Below, piece after piece: positions 50,392-60,780 of a stretch of DNA of 64,000 bases. The translations under genes and the position numbers were made by a program. The stretch comes from Gammaproteobacteria bacterium (GTDB taxonomy: Bacteria; Pseudomonadota; Gammaproteobacteria; Arenicellales; CAJQKF01): positions 1-64,000 of the forward strand of contig JAUIEZ010000001.1 of assembly GCA_030429665.1 (NCBI GenBank), read 5' to 3'. Below the pieces are notes generated by a model. It had not been told where the DNA came from. It saw only the letters and a program-made list of their open reading frames with translations, and ran no database searches. The stretch's first letter is position 1, and each line of letters opens with the position of its first letter.

Positions 50392-51666
50392 CTACGGCAT
50401 CGCCGCGAACGCCGTGTCGGCGTCGACGATTCCCCAGCCGAACTGGGCGGACCAACCCGCACCGTGGACAGAACGCGCGTGGTCGATGACGAAGGATTTC
50501 ATGTCGTCCGGCGACAGATTGCGTCCCTTGGCGCTGGAGCGCAGGGCCGCCACGACGCCCCCCACCACCGGGCAGGCGGCGGACGTGCCGCTGTCCACGG
50601 GAAACACGCCGGAACCGTCGAAGTGGCTGAAACCGGCGATGTCCGGGGTCTGGGCGCTCACGCCCCCGGGCCCTTCCGATGAATAACCGAGCAAGTCGTC
50701 GTTAACCGTCACCGCCGCGACGGACAATACCTCGGGATGAGAGTTTGCGCCGTGGATGCTGCTGCCCGGCCCGGTATTGCCGTTGCCGCAGCGACTGCTC
50801 GGACAGGTGCCGCCGCAGTTGCCGGCGGCGAATACCACGTCCATGCCCGATCCGACGGCCGCGCCGACGATCTGGTTGAACGGATGGCGCGGATTGCGGG
50901 CATAGTTCTGCGCGTTGCCCGCCGGCGCGTCGCCGGCGGTCGAGTACATGCCCCAACTGTTGACGACCACGCGCGGCCCGGGGTTCTGAAGGTGGTCCAC
51001 CATGATCTCGGAGAACGCCCGGATGCCGTCGGAGAGGAACGCCACCCAGGTATTGCCGCTGGACTGTAGCAGCGCGTAGTCGAATATCATCGCGTCCGGC
51101 GCCGCGATCAGCGCGTCGAAGGCGACCATGGTGCCGTGGTCCGGCGGCGACGTTCCCGGCGCGGCGCCGGGTCGCGGCGAGTAGCCGCCCACGACGTTGA
51201 TCTGCGTACCGTCGATGCCGGTGTCCACGACCACCACTTTCGCGCCGCGACCGGTCGCACCCGATCCGTGCAGGCCGGCGATATTCACCTTGTTCAGGAC
51301 GTCACCGCTCGTTCCGACCGGCGAACCCGGACAGGTTACCGGAAACGTGCTGATTTGAGGGTCGGCGAACACCCCTTCAACGGTATCCGCGTTGCGCTCG
51401 AGGAACTCGTTTTCGGCGTCGTCGTTGTCGAATTCCAGCGCCACCGAGAAGTTGTGCCCGAGCGGCGACACGTACTCGTCGTCTTCGAGCGACACGCCGA
51501 CCCGTCTCGTAACCACGGGCACGCGAACCGGATACCCTTGGGCCGGCACCCGCGCGCCGGTCAGACTGGCTTCGCTTTCAAGGGCCGACTGGGTGATATC
51601 CATCGACCGCATGGTGGAGGCCTCGGTCAGCCATTCCCTGGGCCTCATCAGGACGATTTTTCTCAT
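50392..51666 (-). CDS. S8-family subtilisin-like serine peptidase, no obvious signal peptide
   Basis: VVVDTGIDGT (Asp), PDHGTMVA (His), DSGTSAACPVVGGVVAAL (Ser). Confidence 0.92.
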   Translation of the reverse strand: MRKIVLMRPREWLTEASTMRSMDITQSALESEASLTGARVPAQGYPVRVPVVTRRVGVSLEDDEYVSPLGHNFSVALEFDNDDAENEFLERNADTVEGVFADPQISTFPVTCPGSPVGTSGDVLNKVNIAGLHGSGATGRGAKVVVVDTGIDGTQINVVGGYSPRPGAAPGTSPPDHGTMVAFDALIAAPDAMIFDYALLQSSGNTWVAFLSDGIRAFSEIMVDHLQNPGPRVVVNSWGMYSTAGDAPAGNAQNYARNPRHPFNQIVGAAVGSGMDVVFAAGNCGGTCPSSRCGNGNTGPGSSIHGANSHPEVLSVAAVTVNDDLLGYSSEGPGGVSAQTPDIAGFSHFDGSGVFPVDSGTSAACPVVGGVVAALRSSAKGRNLSPDDMKSFVIDHARSVHGAGWSAQFGWGIVDADTAFAAMP

Positions 51667-51920
51667 GGCTCACTTCTCCGGTTTGTATTCGGCCCGATCT
51701 CGATGTCCGGAAAGACGTCGAACTGCGGGCTCCGGTTGATCGCCTCGGCATCCGTTTCCGCCGCCGTGCCGCGAATCAGTACCGCCGTGGCGGAGGGAGT
51801 CAACGGCACGAACGAATACGTCCGATCGATGCGCATGCCCGCCGCCTCGAGACTGACCAGGGCATCCTCCATGGTCGCGAACTCGGACACATGGTTGATT
51901 CGGACCATGTACGCGGGCAT
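51663..51920 (-). CDS. Small I9-inhibitor/propeptide-like protein (tentative)
   Basis: MPAYMVRINHVSEFATMEDALVSLEAAGMRIDRTYSFVPLTPSATAVLIRGTAAETDAEAINRSPQFDVFPDIEIGP; ATGA overlap with the subtilase gene. Confidence 0.5.
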   Translation of the reverse strand: MPAYMVRINHVSEFATMEDALVSLEAAGMRIDRTYSFVPLTPSATAVLIRGTAAETDAEAINRSPQFDVFPDIEIGPNTNRRSEP

Positions 51921-51924
51921 GCAA

Positions 51925-53592
51925 CTACTCCGATTTCGGTAATGCAATGCCGAATTTCTGCGCGGTGGCCGCCGGCGTGAGTTGCTGCAAGGTCTGACCG
52001 CCGACCCCGAAACCCAGCCCCCAGAAGAAGCACTTGAAGTAGTCCAGCGTGATGCCGAATCCCGGATTGGAGTAGATGACCACGTAGGCCCCGGCAACGA
52101 GCGAAAACGCCAGCCACAAACCCCATACGGTCCCGCTGACCAGCCCGATATTGAACTCGAGCCGTTCCACGGTGACCGCCGGCGCGCTCGGTGCGGTCAT
52201 CGACATTCCGCCGGGACCGGAGGGCAATCCCTGGAATATCGTCGCGAGGCCCGCGCGCGCCGCGTCGAGGTCCGCCGAGCCGGCCAGGCCGTCCACGTCC
52301 TTGAGCGCTTGCGTGTAGCGGGCGGCGTGGGCGTCTTGCCACTCGATGTCGAGCCTGACCAATCCTTCGCGCACCAGGGCATCCTGGATGAGCAGCACGG
52401 CGACCACTTCCTCGATGCGCGACTTGAGCTTCTGCGCCCACCCGTTATTGACGGCAAAGGGTTCCGAGTACCAGGCGGGCAGCAGACCATCGGCGCGCAG
52501 CCGGCCCGGGTCCAGCGATTCGGCCATGTCGGCGAGGCGGTCGGAAATATCGTGAAGACTGGTGGAGCGCTTTCGCTCGATCGCGGCGACACGCTCCCGC
52601 AGCTCGCCGATTCGCTCGGCGACGCGCGCGGCCGGGAGCAAGGCGCGCGCCCGCGCCAGGTAGTTCCGCGCGAACACGTTGACGAAGAACGCCAGCAACA
52701 GGCCCGCCGCGATGGCCGCCCAACCGAGATACGCCGCTCCGTCGGGGCTCGAGAACACGGTCAACTCGAAGGACTGCCCAGCGGCACCGTTCGTGGCCCC
52801 GATGGTGACGTTGCCCTTGTACTTTCCGGCGCGTTCGAAGCCGTCGATCCTCAACAACAGTCCGGTGGCGCTCTTGCGCGGAACGTTGACGGGTCCGCCA
52901 CATTGGTCGGGTCCGTGGCAAAGTTCGAGGTGTTCGACGCCGATCCTCGCGCGAGTCGTCTCCTCCTGCAGTGTCGACTGCATGATGGTGACGTCCGTCG
53001 CCGGCTTGTCGCCCGTGGTTACGGTAAAATCCACGAAGTTGCCGCTCGACAACAGGACCTCGCCAGCCGGTGGGGTCAGCGACCAGTCCAGCGCCCCGTC
53101 GCGCGCGATCGGCCGGATCGTGAAGGGCACGTTCGCCGCGGCGAGATCCCCCAGCGAAATCCATAACGGAACCGTCAGCCCCTCGCCGGGTTCCATGCCG
53201 GTCACGGTCATGTCCAGGGTCCAGTAGTGCTTGTCGGCGACCCGGCCGAGAATTTCCACGTCCGAGAAGTCCACCTTCACGCCCGAGCGGTCCAATGAAC
53301 CGAGCACCTCGACCGACGGCTTGACGGCGTCCGTGTCCACGGTCTCCCGCGGTTCGGCCGCTTCCGCGGTCGTCGCCCCCTCGGCCGTCGGTTCGTCGTC
53401 CACCGGCGGCGCCTCGTAGGCGACCACCAGGCGATGGCGGTGACGGTCGACTTCAGGGGATATGGCGACCTCGGCGTTTTCCACCGTGATCGTGCCGCCG
53501 GTCGCAAGGCTGGACGCCCCATGTACCGGCAAGACGAATGCCAACGCGGTCGCGAAGGCGAGAAGTGTTCGAGTCAAGACTTTGTCCACCAT
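51925..53592 (-). CDS. Secreted/membrane protein with large extracytoplasmic region, TM, coiled-coil-like segment and C-terminal TM pair
   Basis: Signal peptide LLAFATALAFVLPVHGASS; TM AAYLGWAAIAAGLLLAFFVNVFA; RIGELRERVAAIERKRS; C-terminal hydrophobic segments. Confidence 0.7.
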   Translation of the reverse strand: MVDKVLTRTLLAFATALAFVLPVHGASSLATGGTITVENAEVAISPEVDRHRHRLVVAYEAPPVDDEPTAEGATTAEAAEPRETVDTDAVKPSVEVLGSLDRSGVKVDFSDVEILGRVADKHYWTLDMTVTGMEPGEGLTVPLWISLGDLAAANVPFTIRPIARDGALDWSLTPPAGEVLLSSGNFVDFTVTTGDKPATDVTIMQSTLQEETTRARIGVEHLELCHGPDQCGGPVNVPRKSATGLLLRIDGFERAGKYKGNVTIGATNGAAGQSFELTVFSSPDGAAYLGWAAIAAGLLLAFFVNVFARNYLARARALLPAARVAERIGELRERVAAIERKRSTSLHDISDRLADMAESLDPGRLRADGLLPAWYSEPFAVNNGWAQKLKSRIEEVVAVLLIQDALVREGLVRLDIEWQDAHAARYTQALKDVDGLAGSADLDAARAGLATIFQGLPSGPGGMSMTAPSAPAVTVERLEFNIGLVSGTVWGLWLAFSLVAGAYVVIYSNPGFGITLDYFKCFFWGLGFGVGGQTLQQLTPAATAQKFGIALPKSE

Positions 53593-53627
53593 GGCGATAC
53601 GCTCGTTACGGCTGTCGTTTGCAGGAA

Positions 53628-54680
53628 TCAAGGAGCATTCGATGCATTGGCCAGCGCCGCGCGGGCCGACGCCACGCTATCGGCAAACACCGACAGCCAT
53701 GCCCACGCCTCTTCCGGCGACAGATCGCCGCGGGCGAGTCGGAACAGCTCCGATTGCGCCTCGCGCATGCGACGCACCAGCACGCGCGGTTCGCCGGCGA
53801 CCAGGAGTCGATCGTATGGCTCGAGGCCCGCATCGACGACCTCGGCCGCGGCCAGGATATCGACCACGTCCCGTTCGCGATCCAGCTGTGTCAATGCGTG
53901 GCGAAAGCGCAGGAACGGCACGACCAGGGCCGCCTTGCGGCGGCGTTCCCAGGCGGCGGCGACGCTGCCGCTGCGCTCGAGCGTGTCGAGCAGGTCGATT
54001 ACCGTGTCGTTGTTATCCAGGATGTAGCGTTTCAGCGCCTCGGCACGTGCGGCATCGTCGGCAATCTTCAGTATGGATACCAGCGCCTCGCGAAGTTGCT
54101 CGGCGATCGCTTCGATGCCCTCGAGTTGTTTCGATAACGACATGGCGGCGGCGGCGCCGATCGTCGGCGCCGCCATGGCCTCGAGCGGTTGGTACGCCAG
54201 GTCCGCCGCTACCCGGTCGGTGCACGACTTGCGTGCCGCATCGGGATCGGTCTCGGCCGGCAGCTCGATACCGGCAATGGGTGCGTTCAACGCACGAAGC
54301 GATTGCAGCAACTCACCAAGATCGTCCGACGGCGGTTCGCTGATTCTCGCGATCGTCCGGTTGTAGTCCCTGAGCGCCTTCACCGTCGCCTGCTCCTTGT
54401 GAAGCTCACCGAATCCCGCGCAGACATAGCGAACGAACGACTCGTTCACGCGTTGACTGTGCAGGTTTCGTGCGTCGTTTCCCTCGATGACGTAGTAGGC
54501 GAACGCCTCGGCACGACGATCCGGCGCGTTCGATGCAAGCACCTCGTTCATCGCGCCGCTGGCGGCCTCGTAGCCTTCGGCGAAGGATTCGCTCGCATTC
54601 AGGAACATGCTGCGCGTGGCGCAGGCGGTCAGCGATGCGACGACCGGGACCAGGATCATCGTTCGAAGCAGTCGATTCAT
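53628..54680 (-). CDS. Predicted lipoprotein of unknown function, helix-rich
   Basis: MNRLLRTMILVPVVASLTACATRSM lipobox (LTAC), then mostly helical sequence. Confidence 0.75.
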   Translation of the reverse strand: MNRLLRTMILVPVVASLTACATRSMFLNASESFAEGYEAASGAMNEVLASNAPDRRAEAFAYYVIEGNDARNLHSQRVNESFVRYVCAGFGELHKEQATVKALRDYNRTIARISEPPSDDLGELLQSLRALNAPIAGIELPAETDPDAARKSCTDRVAADLAYQPLEAMAAPTIGAAAAMSLSKQLEGIEAIAEQLREALVSILKIADDAARAEALKRYILDNNDTVIDLLDTLERSGSVAAAWERRRKAALVVPFLRFRHALTQLDRERDVVDILAAAEVVDAGLEPYDRLLVAGEPRVLVRRMREAQSELFRLARGDLSPEEAWAWLSVFADSVASARAALANASNAP

Positions 54681-54796
54681 GTCCACGCTCCCCCGTGAGC
54701 AACCTCCATCGGGAATTCTCGACGATCGCCGGATCGCGGTCTGTGACTATCCCCACAACCCCGTACCGGCCGTCACGTCCGGACACCCGAATGCGG

Positions 54797-55372
54797 CTAT
54801 CCCAACGGGACCCTTCCCAGCCATCCCCGCGCGAAGCGCTCCTGCGCCGGATTGGCGCGCATGATCTCCACGTAGCGGTGACCTTGCAGGATATTCATAA
54901 GACGCAGAACGAATGCATTGGTGCCGTCGCGGGCGAGACGCTCCTCGAGCGCGGAGAGTGTCTTCTCTCCCAGCCAACCATCGACGACGACGCCATCACT
55001 CGGCGCGCCGCGGTCCAGCAGATTGATCGACTCCTGCAGGAAGCGGACCACCGTGCGAAGGCCCATGTTGATGCCGGTATCGAACACCTCCACGGCGATG
55101 TCCTGGTCGGAAATGCGATCGCCGAGGATGCGATCCCAGTAGTGGTCCTTGTAGAACTTTCGCACCTGCCGTTGCAGTACGCCGTCATTCTCGAGCGAAT
55201 CCGGGAACCCGCGCTCGTCGCGTGCCGCGTCGATGCGCTTCCAGCCGCCCCACCCGCCGTGATGCACCCGGGCAATGCCCTTGTAGGTCTCGCCGCCAGG
55301 ATCGACGGGATCGTTCGCGTAGCCGCCCTCGTGTCCGAGTACGACGCTGAAAGCCTGTTCGAAGTCGGCCAT
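54797..55372 (-). CDS. GH108-type N-acetylmuramidase with C-terminal peptidoglycan-binding-like domain
   Basis: FSVVLGHEGGYANDPVDPGGETYKGI (catalytic Glu) and DTGINMGLRTVVRFLQESINLL. Confidence 0.85.
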   Translation of the reverse strand: MADFEQAFSVVLGHEGGYANDPVDPGGETYKGIARVHHGGWGGWKRIDAARDERGFPDSLENDGVLQRQVRKFYKDHYWDRILGDRISDQDIAVEVFDTGINMGLRTVVRFLQESINLLDRGAPSDGVVVDGWLGEKTLSALEERLARDGTNAFVLRLMNILQGHRYVEIMRANPAQERFARGWLGRVPLG

Positions 55373-55377
55373 GATCG

Positions 55378-57375
55378 CTATTTCTGCACGTCGGCGGTGA
55401 ACGGGGAAAAGACCAGCTCTGTATCGCGAAACGGCACCGCTGGCGCATTGCCGCCGAGGACGTTGCGGAGAATGTCGTTGAGCGTTAGCGGATCGTTGTC
55501 GAAGCCGCCGTGGCTGGTGGAAGCGGTGCGGGCGCCGCCCGCCGTGGAACCGTTGCTGTAGAAAAAATCCACCGCCCTACCGACCCGCCGATCCAGCGGT
55601 ACGCTGTAAATCTGCATGCCGAGCAGCGGCTCGGGTATGTCCTCCTCGAAGGCGCGCGAGACGAGGTACAGCAGAGACTTGCGATAGAGCTTCGCCACGG
55701 TGTCGTCGCGCTCGTGCTCGTCGTCGAGGGAGTAGATGCTCATCCGGTCGATGCCGAAGAAGCGTGGCGGCGACGTGACCAGTGCGTGATAGTGGCTCTT
55801 GTACAGATCTATCGTGGCGGCCGGCGCCATGAGCGACACGGTCTTCACCCGCAGCCCCGGCGCCATGACCTCGAGCGCCTCGAGCAGGTAAGCCAACAGC
55901 ACGGCGCCGGTGCTGTGACCGACGAGATGCAGTTGCTTGGGATGTGACGCGGTCAGCAGCCGGCCGACCAGCAATTCCAGGGTCTGCCATCCCGCGCGTC
56001 CGGGCTCGAACGGGCTTTGCGCGCCGCGCTTCATCTCGCGCCACACGGCCCGGCCCGGCACGCGCAGGTTGCGCTCGATGAAGGGGTCCGTAAATGCCGA
56101 GATATCGCCCACCCGCTCGCTCACGATACCCGCCTTGCGCAGAACGACGTCCTTGATCTCTTCGGCGAGGCCGGTGTCGTACATGAAGTGGTAGGGGTAG
56201 ACGCGGTTGGCCTTGAACACCGGCGCCATCGCCTTGATGCGTCGCGCCGAGTCCACCGGCGAATTGAGGCCGCCGTGGGCGTACAGCAACAGGTGATCAT
56301 AGTCCGGGCTCGCGGCCAGCAGCGCACTGGTCTCGTCGACGTCGTTCAAGTCGCTGAAATAGCGTCCGTGACGATGAAAATCACCGTCGTCGATGTGTAC
56401 GAAATGCCCGGCGATTTCGCCGCGCACCGGTGCGGGAGCGCCGCCCGACTGAGCCGCTTCGCGTCGCGGCTTCTCGCGCGTGGAAACCTGCCACACGCCC
56501 TTGGCCGAGAGGCTCAGGCGAAACACCCAGGCGTCGCGGATGTTGTCGAACCAGTCTTCGTAGGTCCAGATAGCGGTGCCGCGATCGCCCCAGTCTTCTC
56601 CCCAGGAATTCTGCACCATGAACCCGCGGTCGTCGTAGCCCACCAGCGCGAACGCGTGGCCGGGCGGCTGGGGCGCCTCGTGATGACGCGGTATGACACC
56701 GCCGTTGGCTTTCACGGCCTTGCCGCGCCAACCGTCGTGGACATTGGCGGAAACGAAGATCACGCCGGCTTCGCATAGGGCCGCGTGAAAGTCGGCGAGG
56801 CGGTGATTGAGCCGGTAATAGGCGCCGATCCGGGTCTCCCGCGCCGCCTTGGCGCGCGTCACCGTCAGTGCGCCCGGCTCGCCTTCGACATAGGGCCAGT
56901 GTGTCTCGCGGCACACGCCCATGGCATACCAGCCCTTGATGGCGCCGCGACACGAGGAGCCGCTGTAGTTGTTTCCGGGCCACTCGTCGAAGCGCCGCGA
57001 CATCTCGTAAAGCATGCGAGGGCTGACCCGATAGCGTTTACCGCGGCTGCTGTTCAGGTAGTTCACGACGGCGGCAAGCGCGAAACCGGTACAGGCGCCT
57101 TCACGTCCCTGGTCGAGAATCTTCAGCTTGTAACGCGGGACGATGCGATCGGGAATTCGCACCAGCGGCGGTTCGTAGGCATAGTCGCGGAAGTCGGCGA
57201 CATCCGGGAAAACGTTGAGTTCGTGTCCGTCGAGTTGCCGCTTGTCGGGATTCTTGCGAACCGGTCCTTCCGCCGGTGATTGATCGCCGGGCACCATCAG
57301 GCGTGATCTCGCGCGCGCCGCGCCGGCCCGCGCATCGTCCCCCGACATGACACCTCCCGCAATAGCGTCCTTCAT
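55378..57375 (-). CDS. Fusion protein: papain-like (C1) cysteine peptidase plus alpha/beta-hydrolase
   Basis: KILDQGREGACTGFALAAVVNYL (Gln/Cys), PPGHAFALVGYDDRGFMVQNSWGEDWGDRG (His/Asn); then LLLYAHGGLNSPVDSARRI and LHLVGHSTGAVLLAYLLEAL. Confidence 0.88.
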   Translation of the reverse strand: MKDAIAGGVMSGDDARAGAARARSRLMVPGDQSPAEGPVRKNPDKRQLDGHELNVFPDVADFRDYAYEPPLVRIPDRIVPRYKLKILDQGREGACTGFALAAVVNYLNSSRGKRYRVSPRMLYEMSRRFDEWPGNNYSGSSCRGAIKGWYAMGVCRETHWPYVEGEPGALTVTRAKAARETRIGAYYRLNHRLADFHAALCEAGVIFVSANVHDGWRGKAVKANGGVIPRHHEAPQPPGHAFALVGYDDRGFMVQNSWGEDWGDRGTAIWTYEDWFDNIRDAWVFRLSLSAKGVWQVSTREKPRREAAQSGGAPAPVRGEIAGHFVHIDDGDFHRHGRYFSDLNDVDETSALLAASPDYDHLLLYAHGGLNSPVDSARRIKAMAPVFKANRVYPYHFMYDTGLAEEIKDVVLRKAGIVSERVGDISAFTDPFIERNLRVPGRAVWREMKRGAQSPFEPGRAGWQTLELLVGRLLTASHPKQLHLVGHSTGAVLLAYLLEALEVMAPGLRVKTVSLMAPAATIDLYKSHYHALVTSPPRFFGIDRMSIYSLDDEHERDDTVAKLYRKSLLYLVSRAFEEDIPEPLLGMQIYSVPLDRRVGRAVDFFYSNGSTAGGARTASTSHGGFDNDPLTLNDILRNVLGGNAPAVPFRDTELVFSPFTADVQK

Positions 57376-58374: not shown

Positions 58375-60069
58375 TCAATGTATTGCGTTCAATGCCCTGA
58401 GCACCGCCTCGTCGCGACCATAGATGTCCGGATAGAAACGCACGTTGCCGTTCAGGTCCGGGTCGACGGTCCAGTAGAGCACCAGTACCGGTAGTGTTGG
58501 CATCAGGTCGACTCGCGTCGTTTCGCCTTCGGCGATGACACTTTCGATTGCCTCGACGTTCCAGCGCGGATCGTTCCCGAGCAGCAGCGACGCCAATTCG
58601 AGCGGCCTTTCGACCCGAATACACCCGTGACTGAACGCGCGCTCGGTGCGATCGAACAGATCGTGCGACGGCGTATCGTGCAGGTAGACGGCATGCCGGT
58701 TCGGAAACATGAACTTGACGCGGCCCAGAGCGTTGTCTTCGCCGGGACGCTGAATCACGGTGAAGTCGGGTCCTGACCTGGCAACCCGCGCCCAATCGAC
58801 GGACCGCGGATCGAGGACATTGCCGCGCCCGTCGCGCAGGTAGAAGTTCCCGCGTTGAAGATAGGTCGGGTCGCGCATCATTTCCGGCGCAAACTCGTTG
58901 ACGACGATGCTTGTCGGCACGGTCCAGTCGGGATTGAACACGACGTGATTCATTTCCCCGCGAAACACCGGCGTGCGGTGATAGCTCTTGCCGACGATCA
59001 CGCGCTGCTCCCAGGCCACCGCCCCCTCGCGCACGACCTCCACGTAGTACCCGGCGATGTTCACGACGATGAAGTCCCGGTCGGGATCGCGCAGCACCCA
59101 GCGGGCCCGTTCGAGGTTGACCCGAAGCTGATCGATGCGCTCCTCGACAGGAACGTTGAGGGCTGCCAGCGTGTTTCTGCCGACCACGCCGTCGGGCTCG
59201 ATTCCGTGGCGGTGCTGGAACGACTTTACCGCCTCCGCCAAACCCGGGTCGAAAAAGCGGACGTCGCCGGATTCGATGCCGGTGTAGTCACCGCTCATTC
59301 TCAACCGCGTACGCAGCAACTGGACCCGGGGATCGGTCATGCCGGGCCTGAGCGTCGCGCCGTCCGGCATCATCGGCCAACCGCCGGTCGAGGCGAGTTC
59401 GCGGTGGCTCCTCAATGCCGTTTTCAGGGTCAGGTAGTACGGGTTGTGGTTCTGTACGCGCTCGAACAGCGCTTCAAGTCGCCCGGCATCCATCGCGGCG
59501 GCCAACTCCGTCGCCAGGTCGATCCCCTCCGAGGGCGCGGTAAAATTCCAGTCCGGATCGAGCGAAGAGGGATTGACCTTGCCGAAGCGAACGTGACGCA
59601 GCAACCGGCCCGCGGCCGCGGAAAGGGCAAGGTCGCGCTCGGCCTCCTGTATGGCGTCGCGAGGCGCTTCGGACAACAGTCGCTCGAGCAACTGGAGGTG
59701 ATAATCGGCCGGCTTCAGGCCATGCGCTGCCACGGATCGTATGGCTCGCAGCAACGTGTCGATATCGCCAGTCCGGGTCCACGCCGGCCGGTGCTGCCTC
59801 GCGCCATAGAACCGCGACACGAACGACTCGGGGCGACGGTCTATAACTGCCAGTGCGGACTGAACGTTGCCGTTAAGCAACGACTCGATTGCGGCGGCGG
59901 TAATGCGCGCGTCGGCGCTTGCCGCCGTGCTGGCGGTCATGGTCGTCGCGATCAATAGTGCGGCCGCCACGAACCATTGCCCTCGGCCAATGCGGCGAGC
60001 CGGGTCGTTGCGGTCGTTCACCACCATGTCGACATCATCATGTCCGCGTCGTTCCAATCGTCTTGACAT
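58375..60069 (-). CDS. ldtD: L,D-transpeptidase (YcbB/LdtD-like)
   Basis: N-terminal PG-binding-like repeats; YkuD motif HDTPSHDLFDRTERAFSHGCIRVERP. Confidence 0.88.
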   Translation of the reverse strand: MSRRLERRGHDDVDMVVNDRNDPARRIGRGQWFVAAALLIATTMTASTAASADARITAAAIESLLNGNVQSALAVIDRRPESFVSRFYGARQHRPAWTRTGDIDTLLRAIRSVAAHGLKPADYHLQLLERLLSEAPRDAIQEAERDLALSAAAGRLLRHVRFGKVNPSSLDPDWNFTAPSEGIDLATELAAAMDAGRLEALFERVQNHNPYYLTLKTALRSHRELASTGGWPMMPDGATLRPGMTDPRVQLLRTRLRMSGDYTGIESGDVRFFDPGLAEAVKSFQHRHGIEPDGVVGRNTLAALNVPVEERIDQLRVNLERARWVLRDPDRDFIVVNIAGYYVEVVREGAVAWEQRVIVGKSYHRTPVFRGEMNHVVFNPDWTVPTSIVVNEFAPEMMRDPTYLQRGNFYLRDGRGNVLDPRSVDWARVARSGPDFTVIQRPGEDNALGRVKFMFPNRHAVYLHDTPSHDLFDRTERAFSHGCIRVERPLELASLLLGNDPRWNVEAIESVIAEGETTRVDLMPTLPVLVLYWTVDPDLNGNVRFYPDIYGRDEAVLRALNAIH

Positions 60070-60204: not shown

Positions 60205-60780
60205 ATGTTCAGAAAAGCCGACCGAAATTCACGTTCGATCGATCGGGGTCGACGCGCGCTCGTCGGGGCGGCCGCGCTGGCGGCGCCCTTGTTGTGGCTG
60301 CCCTCCCCCGACACACGGGCGAGTTCGAAAGCCGCGCGCTCGGTACGCATGTATCATACCCATACCGGTGAGCGGATCTCGCTGACCTACCTCGAAGACG
60401 GCGAATACGTCGCCGAGGCATTGCGGGATATCAATCGCTTCCTTCGCGACTTTCGTACCGGCGAAGTTCACCCGATCAACCCGCGCCTGCTGGACAACCT
60501 GCACGCCATGCGGCGCCAGTCCGGGTCCTCGGGGACATTCGAAATCATATCCGGCTTTCGCTCGCCAGCCACCAACGAGATGCTGCGCAGCAAGTCGACC
60601 TCCAGCGGAGTGGCCAAGAAGAGTTTCCACATGACCGGCAACGCCGTGGACGTTCGGCTGACCGGCGTGGACACGAAAGTGCTTCGGGATATCGCGAAGA
60701 GCCTGCGCGCCGGCGGTGTCGGTTTCTACGCCAGGTCGGACTTCATTCACATCGACACCGGTCGCGTCCGATCCTGGTAG
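60205..60780 (+). CDS. mepK: DUF882/M15-type murein endopeptidase (MepK-like), Tat-like signal
   Basis: RGRRALVGAAALAAPLLWL; SGFRSPATNEMLRSKSTSSGVAKKSFHMTGNAVDVRLTGVD...GGVGFYARSDFIHIDTGRVRSW. Confidence 0.88.
   Translation: MFRKADRNSRSIDRGRRALVGAAALAAPLLWLPSPDTRASSKAARSVRMYHTHTGERISLTYLEDGEYVAEALRDINRFLRDFRTGEVHPINPRLLDNLHAMRRQSGSSGTFEIISGFRSPATNEMLRSKSTSSGVAKKSFHMTGNAVDVRLTGVDTKVLRDIAKSLRAGGVGFYARSDFIHIDTGRVRSW

Follow-up and report, generated by a model that had tools for sequence, protein, structure and literature searches.

Known subtilase arrangements include subtilisin with its propeptide and the stand-alone I9 inhibitors. Phage endolysins with GH108 and PG_binding_3 domains are represented by PHROG 315 and, in PMC7188820, by ElyA1 and ElyA2. 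Xylellain-type peptidases of family C1 (papain) have previously been reported in Caudoviricetes (PMC10380794), and the multi-peptidase conflict 'System 3' of Kaur et al. (PMC7159879) contains several peptidases together with wall-attacking domains. Features of each are found in a row of six genes on contig JAUIEZ010000001.1 (assembly GCA_030429665.1) of a gammaproteobacterium, which we investigate here within the first 64,000 nucleotides of that contig (the window). In order of transcription these encode a papain-esterase fusion (g1), a muramidase (g2), two envelope proteins (g3 and g4), a small protein (g5) and a subtilase (g6).

The locus resembles each of the described systems only in part. 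It shares with the phage endolysins the two domains of g2, but differs from phage lysis cassettes in that no holin was recognised, g1 carries an extra esterase domain, and the genes are chromosomal with the C1 gene preceding the GH108 gene. The theme of System 3 is alike, but its NucA nuclease, EAD and STAND components were not recognised here. Like subtilisin and its propeptide, or a subtilase with a stand-alone I9 inhibitor, g6 has a small partner gene, but the product of that gene, g5, matches no Pfam I9 model. No description of either the g1-g2 or the subtilase/small-protein pair was found in a limited open-access literature search, the coverage of which did not extend to the C1/alpha-beta-hydrolase fusion itself.

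A sequence-only reading of this DNA had tentatively proposed that the six genes form one self-contained module for lysis, antibacterial action, programmed lysis or a response to envelope damage. Is this a six-gene system that recurs in other bacteria? Or is the row assembled from smaller units? We find that the cluster is a composite, less unified than proposed, of the g1-g2 pair, a subtilase with an inhibitor-like partner, and two envelope proteins that are orphans. The g1-g2 pair is real and conserved and is most likely a lytic hydrolase pair that either parallels phage lysis genes or derives from them.

Results

The C1 half of g1 matches Pfam Peptidase_C1 (expectation value, E, 1.7e-9) and has the catalytic residues Q89, C95, H240 and N256, which are conserved across 40 relatives. 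Its nearest match is xylellain, the best hit in the Protein Data Bank (3ois; profile E 1e-32, Foldseek 6e-18), and with this and the Gln/Cys/His/Asn set g1 is a xylellain-type C1A peptidase. It differs from xylellain by its fusion to an alpha/beta-hydrolase domain. This second half gave no Pfam match above the cut-off (DUF900 was nearest, E 0.054); Ser488, in a GHSTG-type motif, and His622 are invariant across 40 relatives, and the structure model (predicted local distance difference test score, pLDDT, 86; predicted template modelling score 0.83) folds it as an alpha/beta domain. The first ~41 residues of g1 are predicted to be disordered.

The g2 product is a GH108 family member with the active-site motif HEGGY (Pfam GH108, E 5.7e-23, 81.7 bits against a cut-off of 21.2; PG_binding_3, E 8.8e-12) and matches the PHROG 315 endolysin at E 8e-38. 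The NCBIfam model NF040573, a holin-associated N-acetylmuramidase, aligns over most of the length of g2, but at only 44.6 bits against a cut-off of 240 and without a holin. No signal peptide or transmembrane (TM) segment is predicted for g1, g2 or g6.

A GH108 gene is the next downstream same-strand gene after a g1 homologue in 11 other loci (12 with the window), mostly within 16 bp; apart from one Desulfobulbaceae genome, all are in Gammaproteobacteria. When 83 g1 proteins are placed on a tree, GH108 adjacency requires 4 changes, and 11.3 when the labels are shuffled. In genome G001, of the same genus (77% identity), g1-g2 alone aligns, without the flanks found in the window; other parts of the window match other G001 contigs, and there is no synteny at the pair in the sister species. 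The pair has therefore changed place as a unit. The g1 family is itself broad: the genome collection contains at least 394 related stretches, from Proteobacteria, Thermodesulfobacteriota, Planctomycetota, Nitrospirota, Verrucomicrobiota, Bacteroidota and others. Gene g1 is missing from G002, a 100% complete genome of the same genus, and from 108 of 119 relatives, and is thus an accessory gene.

The sequence-only reading had seen no phage marker. This needs revision, since a gene pair of the g1-g2 type has phage counterparts. Three viral loci, L142, L145 and L158, hold the sole GH108 genes detected among ~1336 viral genes; the xylellain-type C1 gene begins 10 bp after the GH108 gene in L142, overlaps it in L145, and comes two genes later in L158. 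In phage THSA-485A (L254:2619-4373) the C1 gene is 15 bp after a GH25/peptidoglycan-binding endolysin gene. The viral loci mostly have the C1 domain without the esterase. When the nearest neighbours on the same strand in viral contigs, 76 in all, are sorted by family, GH108, PG_binding_3 and PG_binding_1 each occur twice, and only a methyltransferase family is commoner, with four. The DNA of the cluster has no match in phage genomes, and no relatives of g3 or g6 were found in the viral contigs.

Cell wall hydrolases other than GH108 also occur beside bacterial g1 relatives, as found by Pfam scans of selected genes chosen by inspection. In R. etli an Amidase_2 and PG_binding_1 gene is 80 bp upstream; in S. 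fredii the divergent neighbour has PG_binding_1 and a CHAP match below the cut-off; in S. meliloti a CHAP protein is upstream and a caspase-GDSL protein downstream; and in a Gallionellaceae genome the g1 relative is followed by a patatin and by a protein that has PG_binding_1 and, below the cut-off, matches GH19. By inspection, these hydrolases are leaderless. In a control of three 50 kb stretches, from three of the same plasmids, none of 127 features was an annotated wall hydrolase. These neighbours, noticed by inspection and compared with a small control, are no more than suggestive of an envelope role.

Other genes are found near g1 relatives as well. In Alphaproteobacteria these are recurrently haem peroxidases, as on a Palleronia plasmid with five collinear genes (L242:652-8944; TPR, PAP2, S8 subtilase, animal haem peroxidase and g1-like C1) and in Paracoccus (L130; GDSL/trypsin, haem peroxidase and g1-like C1). 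Trypsin, DUF5675-like (sub-cut-off), YLATT and caspase-GDSL genes adjoin the g1-like gene of R. leguminosarum, and caspase-GDSL lipase fusions, a second kind of peptidase-esterase fusion, adjoin g1 relatives on rhizobial plasmids (L016:2252-9884 and L021:4015-11915). By eye, genes near the g1 relative in L115 look CBASS-like, and L093 has a weak TIR_2 match nearby; g1 relatives may thus have a role in conflict. A second, diverged g1 homologue (L029, G015:C29) adjoins an S8-like gene and a gene that by eye resembles DUF2235; VipA, the type VI secretion system (T6SS) marker, was not found in that genome. A general link between S8 and g1 was considered and rejected, as it is indistinguishable from chance: only the Palleronia locus and L029 show it in ~100 loci, with other S8 types.

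The subtilase g6 belongs to family S8 (Pfam Peptidase_S8, E 9.6e-20), with D148, H177, N283 and S362 intact and the catalytic residues invariant in relatives; a conserved cysteine-containing stretch follows the oxyanion Asn. Small proteins are encoded 3' of the subtilase gene in Streptomyces akebiae (L056) and in G074 (L052). A profile made from these two and g5 finds further examples in two sister genomes, L235 (E 9e-13) and L236 (E 4e-13), both directly downstream of a subtilase gene. The pairing, present at 5 of 12 subtilase loci including that of the window, in distant lineages and without g1-g2, is well supported as recurrent. That g5 belongs to this small-protein family is suggested by a held-out profile of the subtilase-linked proteins, for which g5 is the best of 455 window open reading frames (ORFs), at E 0.06 only. 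Unlike the partners elsewhere, g5 is upstream of its subtilase gene, and its single-sequence fold is of low confidence (pLDDT 54). The earlier description of g5 as I9-like is not borne out by Pfam, which gives no match above the cut-off, and has weak support from the held-out profile.

The predicted lipoprotein g3 has the lipobox LTAC. By hydropathy, g4 has a signal peptide, a predicted periplasmic part, a TM segment near 285-310, a helical part and a C-terminal TM hairpin. Neither has a Pfam match above the cut-off or a family in the other family libraries searched. In 194 related genomes g4 has no relative and g3 no convincing one (one 51-residue match, E 3e-4); in a 399-genome sample of the phylum g4 has one 94-residue match (E 9e-4) with an internal stop and nothing convincing. 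No relatives of either were found in plasmids or viral contigs. Relatedness of g4 to YLATT was dropped, there being no Pfam match, as was g3 as a conserved immunity partner of g2, g3 being absent next to every other g1-g2 pair.

No second instance of the whole g1-g6 set was found in the genomes searched. Relatives of g6 occur without g1, and those of g1 without a g6-type subtilase. The sequence-only reading had named a failure to co-occur in other genomes as grounds for its refutation; this applies to the six genes taken together but not to the pairs within them. Only the pairs recur, g1-g2 and subtilase/small protein, and the cluster is therefore a composite and not a widespread six-gene system. 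The unity claimed for the module is thus not shown, with g3 and g4 lacking convincing relatives, while its lytic character gains support from the wall hydrolases encoded next to g1 relatives and from the phage C1 and GH108 loci.

The six ORFs are present at 50392-57375 exactly where first described, in the same order and with the same spacing, and codon-position GC gives a coding signature in all of them (0.77-0.84 at the third position, 0.41-0.52 at the second). Also upheld were the intact active sites of all four hydrolytic domains, the leaderless g1, g2 and g6, and the envelope-type g3 and g4 (Table 1). The genes are separated by 5 bp (g1-g2), 116 bp (g2-g3, with the g3 ATG start at 54680), 35 bp (g3-g4, with the g4 ATG start at 53592) and 4 bp (g4-g5), and g5 and g6 overlap in ATGA. 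There is no sigma-70-type promoter match across the cluster region, no mobile-element marker at the locus, and no compositional shift or tRNA within the window. Close upstream are an L,D-transpeptidase gene and a DUF882/M15_2 peptidase gene, an arrangement similar to that of ycbB-ycbK.

Table 1. Genes of the cluster and those close upstream, with positions in the window
Gene	Position	Strand	Length (aa)	Product
g1	55378..57375	-	665	Xylellain-type C1 (papain) peptidase and alpha/beta-hydrolase (esterase-like) fusion, leaderless
g2	54797..55372	-	191	GH108 muramidase with PG_binding_3, leaderless
g3	53628..54680	-	350	Predicted lipoprotein, orphan
g4	51925..53592	-	555	Signal peptide and TM segments, orphan
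g5	51663..51920	-	85	Possibly a stand-alone propeptide (I9)-like partner of g6
g6	50392..51666	-	424	S8 subtilase, leaderless, with its own N-terminal pro-region
	58375..60069	-		L,D-transpeptidase (YkuD with scaffold domain)
	60205..60780	+		DUF882/M15_2 peptidase

Discussion

The explanation that we favour, to which we give an even chance, is that the cluster is a composite in which a transferable two-gene lytic core, g1-g2, acts on the cell envelope beside a putatively regulated subtilase and two orphan envelope proteins. The placing of a C1 gene beside a GH108 endolysin gene in some phages suggests that the leaderless protease-esterase and the leaderless muramidase would act jointly on the envelope, perhaps that of the cell in which they are made. 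As no holin was found, g1 might open the membrane for g2 through its esterase half; alternatively, both enzymes might act only once the cell is breached. The subtilase g6 may be restrained in trans by g5, and g3 and g4 may localise or gate the activity.

Several observations weigh against a lytic core. The majority of g1 relatives stand alone, and GH108 adjacency occurs in a single part of the tree of g1 proteins. Neither a holin family nor a small TM protein was found among g1-g6 by family searches and hydropathy. One pair member (G004, L023:8395-8943) reads QAEGY where the others read HEGGY; with the EGGY motif lost, this GH108 protein may be inactive. Two of the phage loci, L142 and L145, are possibly the result of a single event, because their upstream genes are common to both. 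In addition, the non-GH108 neighbours were picked by inspection against a small control.

Could these instead be housekeeping enzymes for intracellular turnover or envelope recycling, clustered by chance? The solitary g1 relatives, the adjoining L,D-transpeptidase and M15_2 genes, and the lack of a mobile-element marker or compositional shift would all fit. However, we consider this unlikely, as the genes are accessory, with g1 absent even from the complete G002, a leaderless muramidase has no normal route to the wall, and g1-g2 moves as a unit. Somewhat less likely still is one dedicated six-gene system in which g3 and g4 sense envelope damage or infection and g6, freed from g5, switches on g1-g2 by cleaving them, so that the cell is killed and lysed. 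It would account for the tight collinear spacing, the coupling of g4, g5 and g6 and the want of a promoter match, and g1 relatives are found near caspase, trypsin, membrane YLATT, CBASS-like and TIR-like genes. Yet no other instance of the set was found, the closest g1-g2 pair (77%) is without g3-g6, and the 116-bp gap between g2 and g3 may part two transcripts. PADLOC shows no defence system in the cluster, only weak generic subtilase similarity, and a known anti-phage defence system was rejected on this ground. A more specific form of the six-gene system, a proteolytically gated, holin-less self-lysis in which the g3-g4 sensor frees g6 from g5, g6 switches on g1-g2 and the esterase replaces the holin so that the muramidase reaches the wall, seems to us improbable.

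The reading that we hold to be the most doubtful is that g1 and g2 serve as effectors against other bacteria, into which they are delivered, and that g3 is the lipoprotein that confers immunity. Injected antibacterial effectors typically include leaderless muramidase and lipase-like domains, which g1 and g2 would fit, and DUF2235-like, PLD, patatin and amidase genes are found near g1 relatives. However, VipA (PF05591) is absent from G000, the genome of the window, as assembled (93% complete), and from nine relatives, five of the ten genomes carrying the pair besides that of the window; T6SS delivery was rejected accordingly. Delivery by a contractile sheath was also rejected: the sheath was above the cut-off in just two pair genomes, G027 and G046, below it in G002, and not found in G000. 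Nor does g3 accompany any other pair.

With the composite of a probably lytic g1-g2 core and a separate subtilase pair, a vague operon is resolved into two testable pairs. The subtilase/small-protein pair suggests that there are trans-inhibited intracellular subtilases in several lineages. The papain-esterase/GH108 pair ties a widespread protein, which annotation calls simply 'C1 family peptidase', to the hydrolysis of murein by both bacteria and phages, and suggests a module for lysis or envelope attack that works without a holin.

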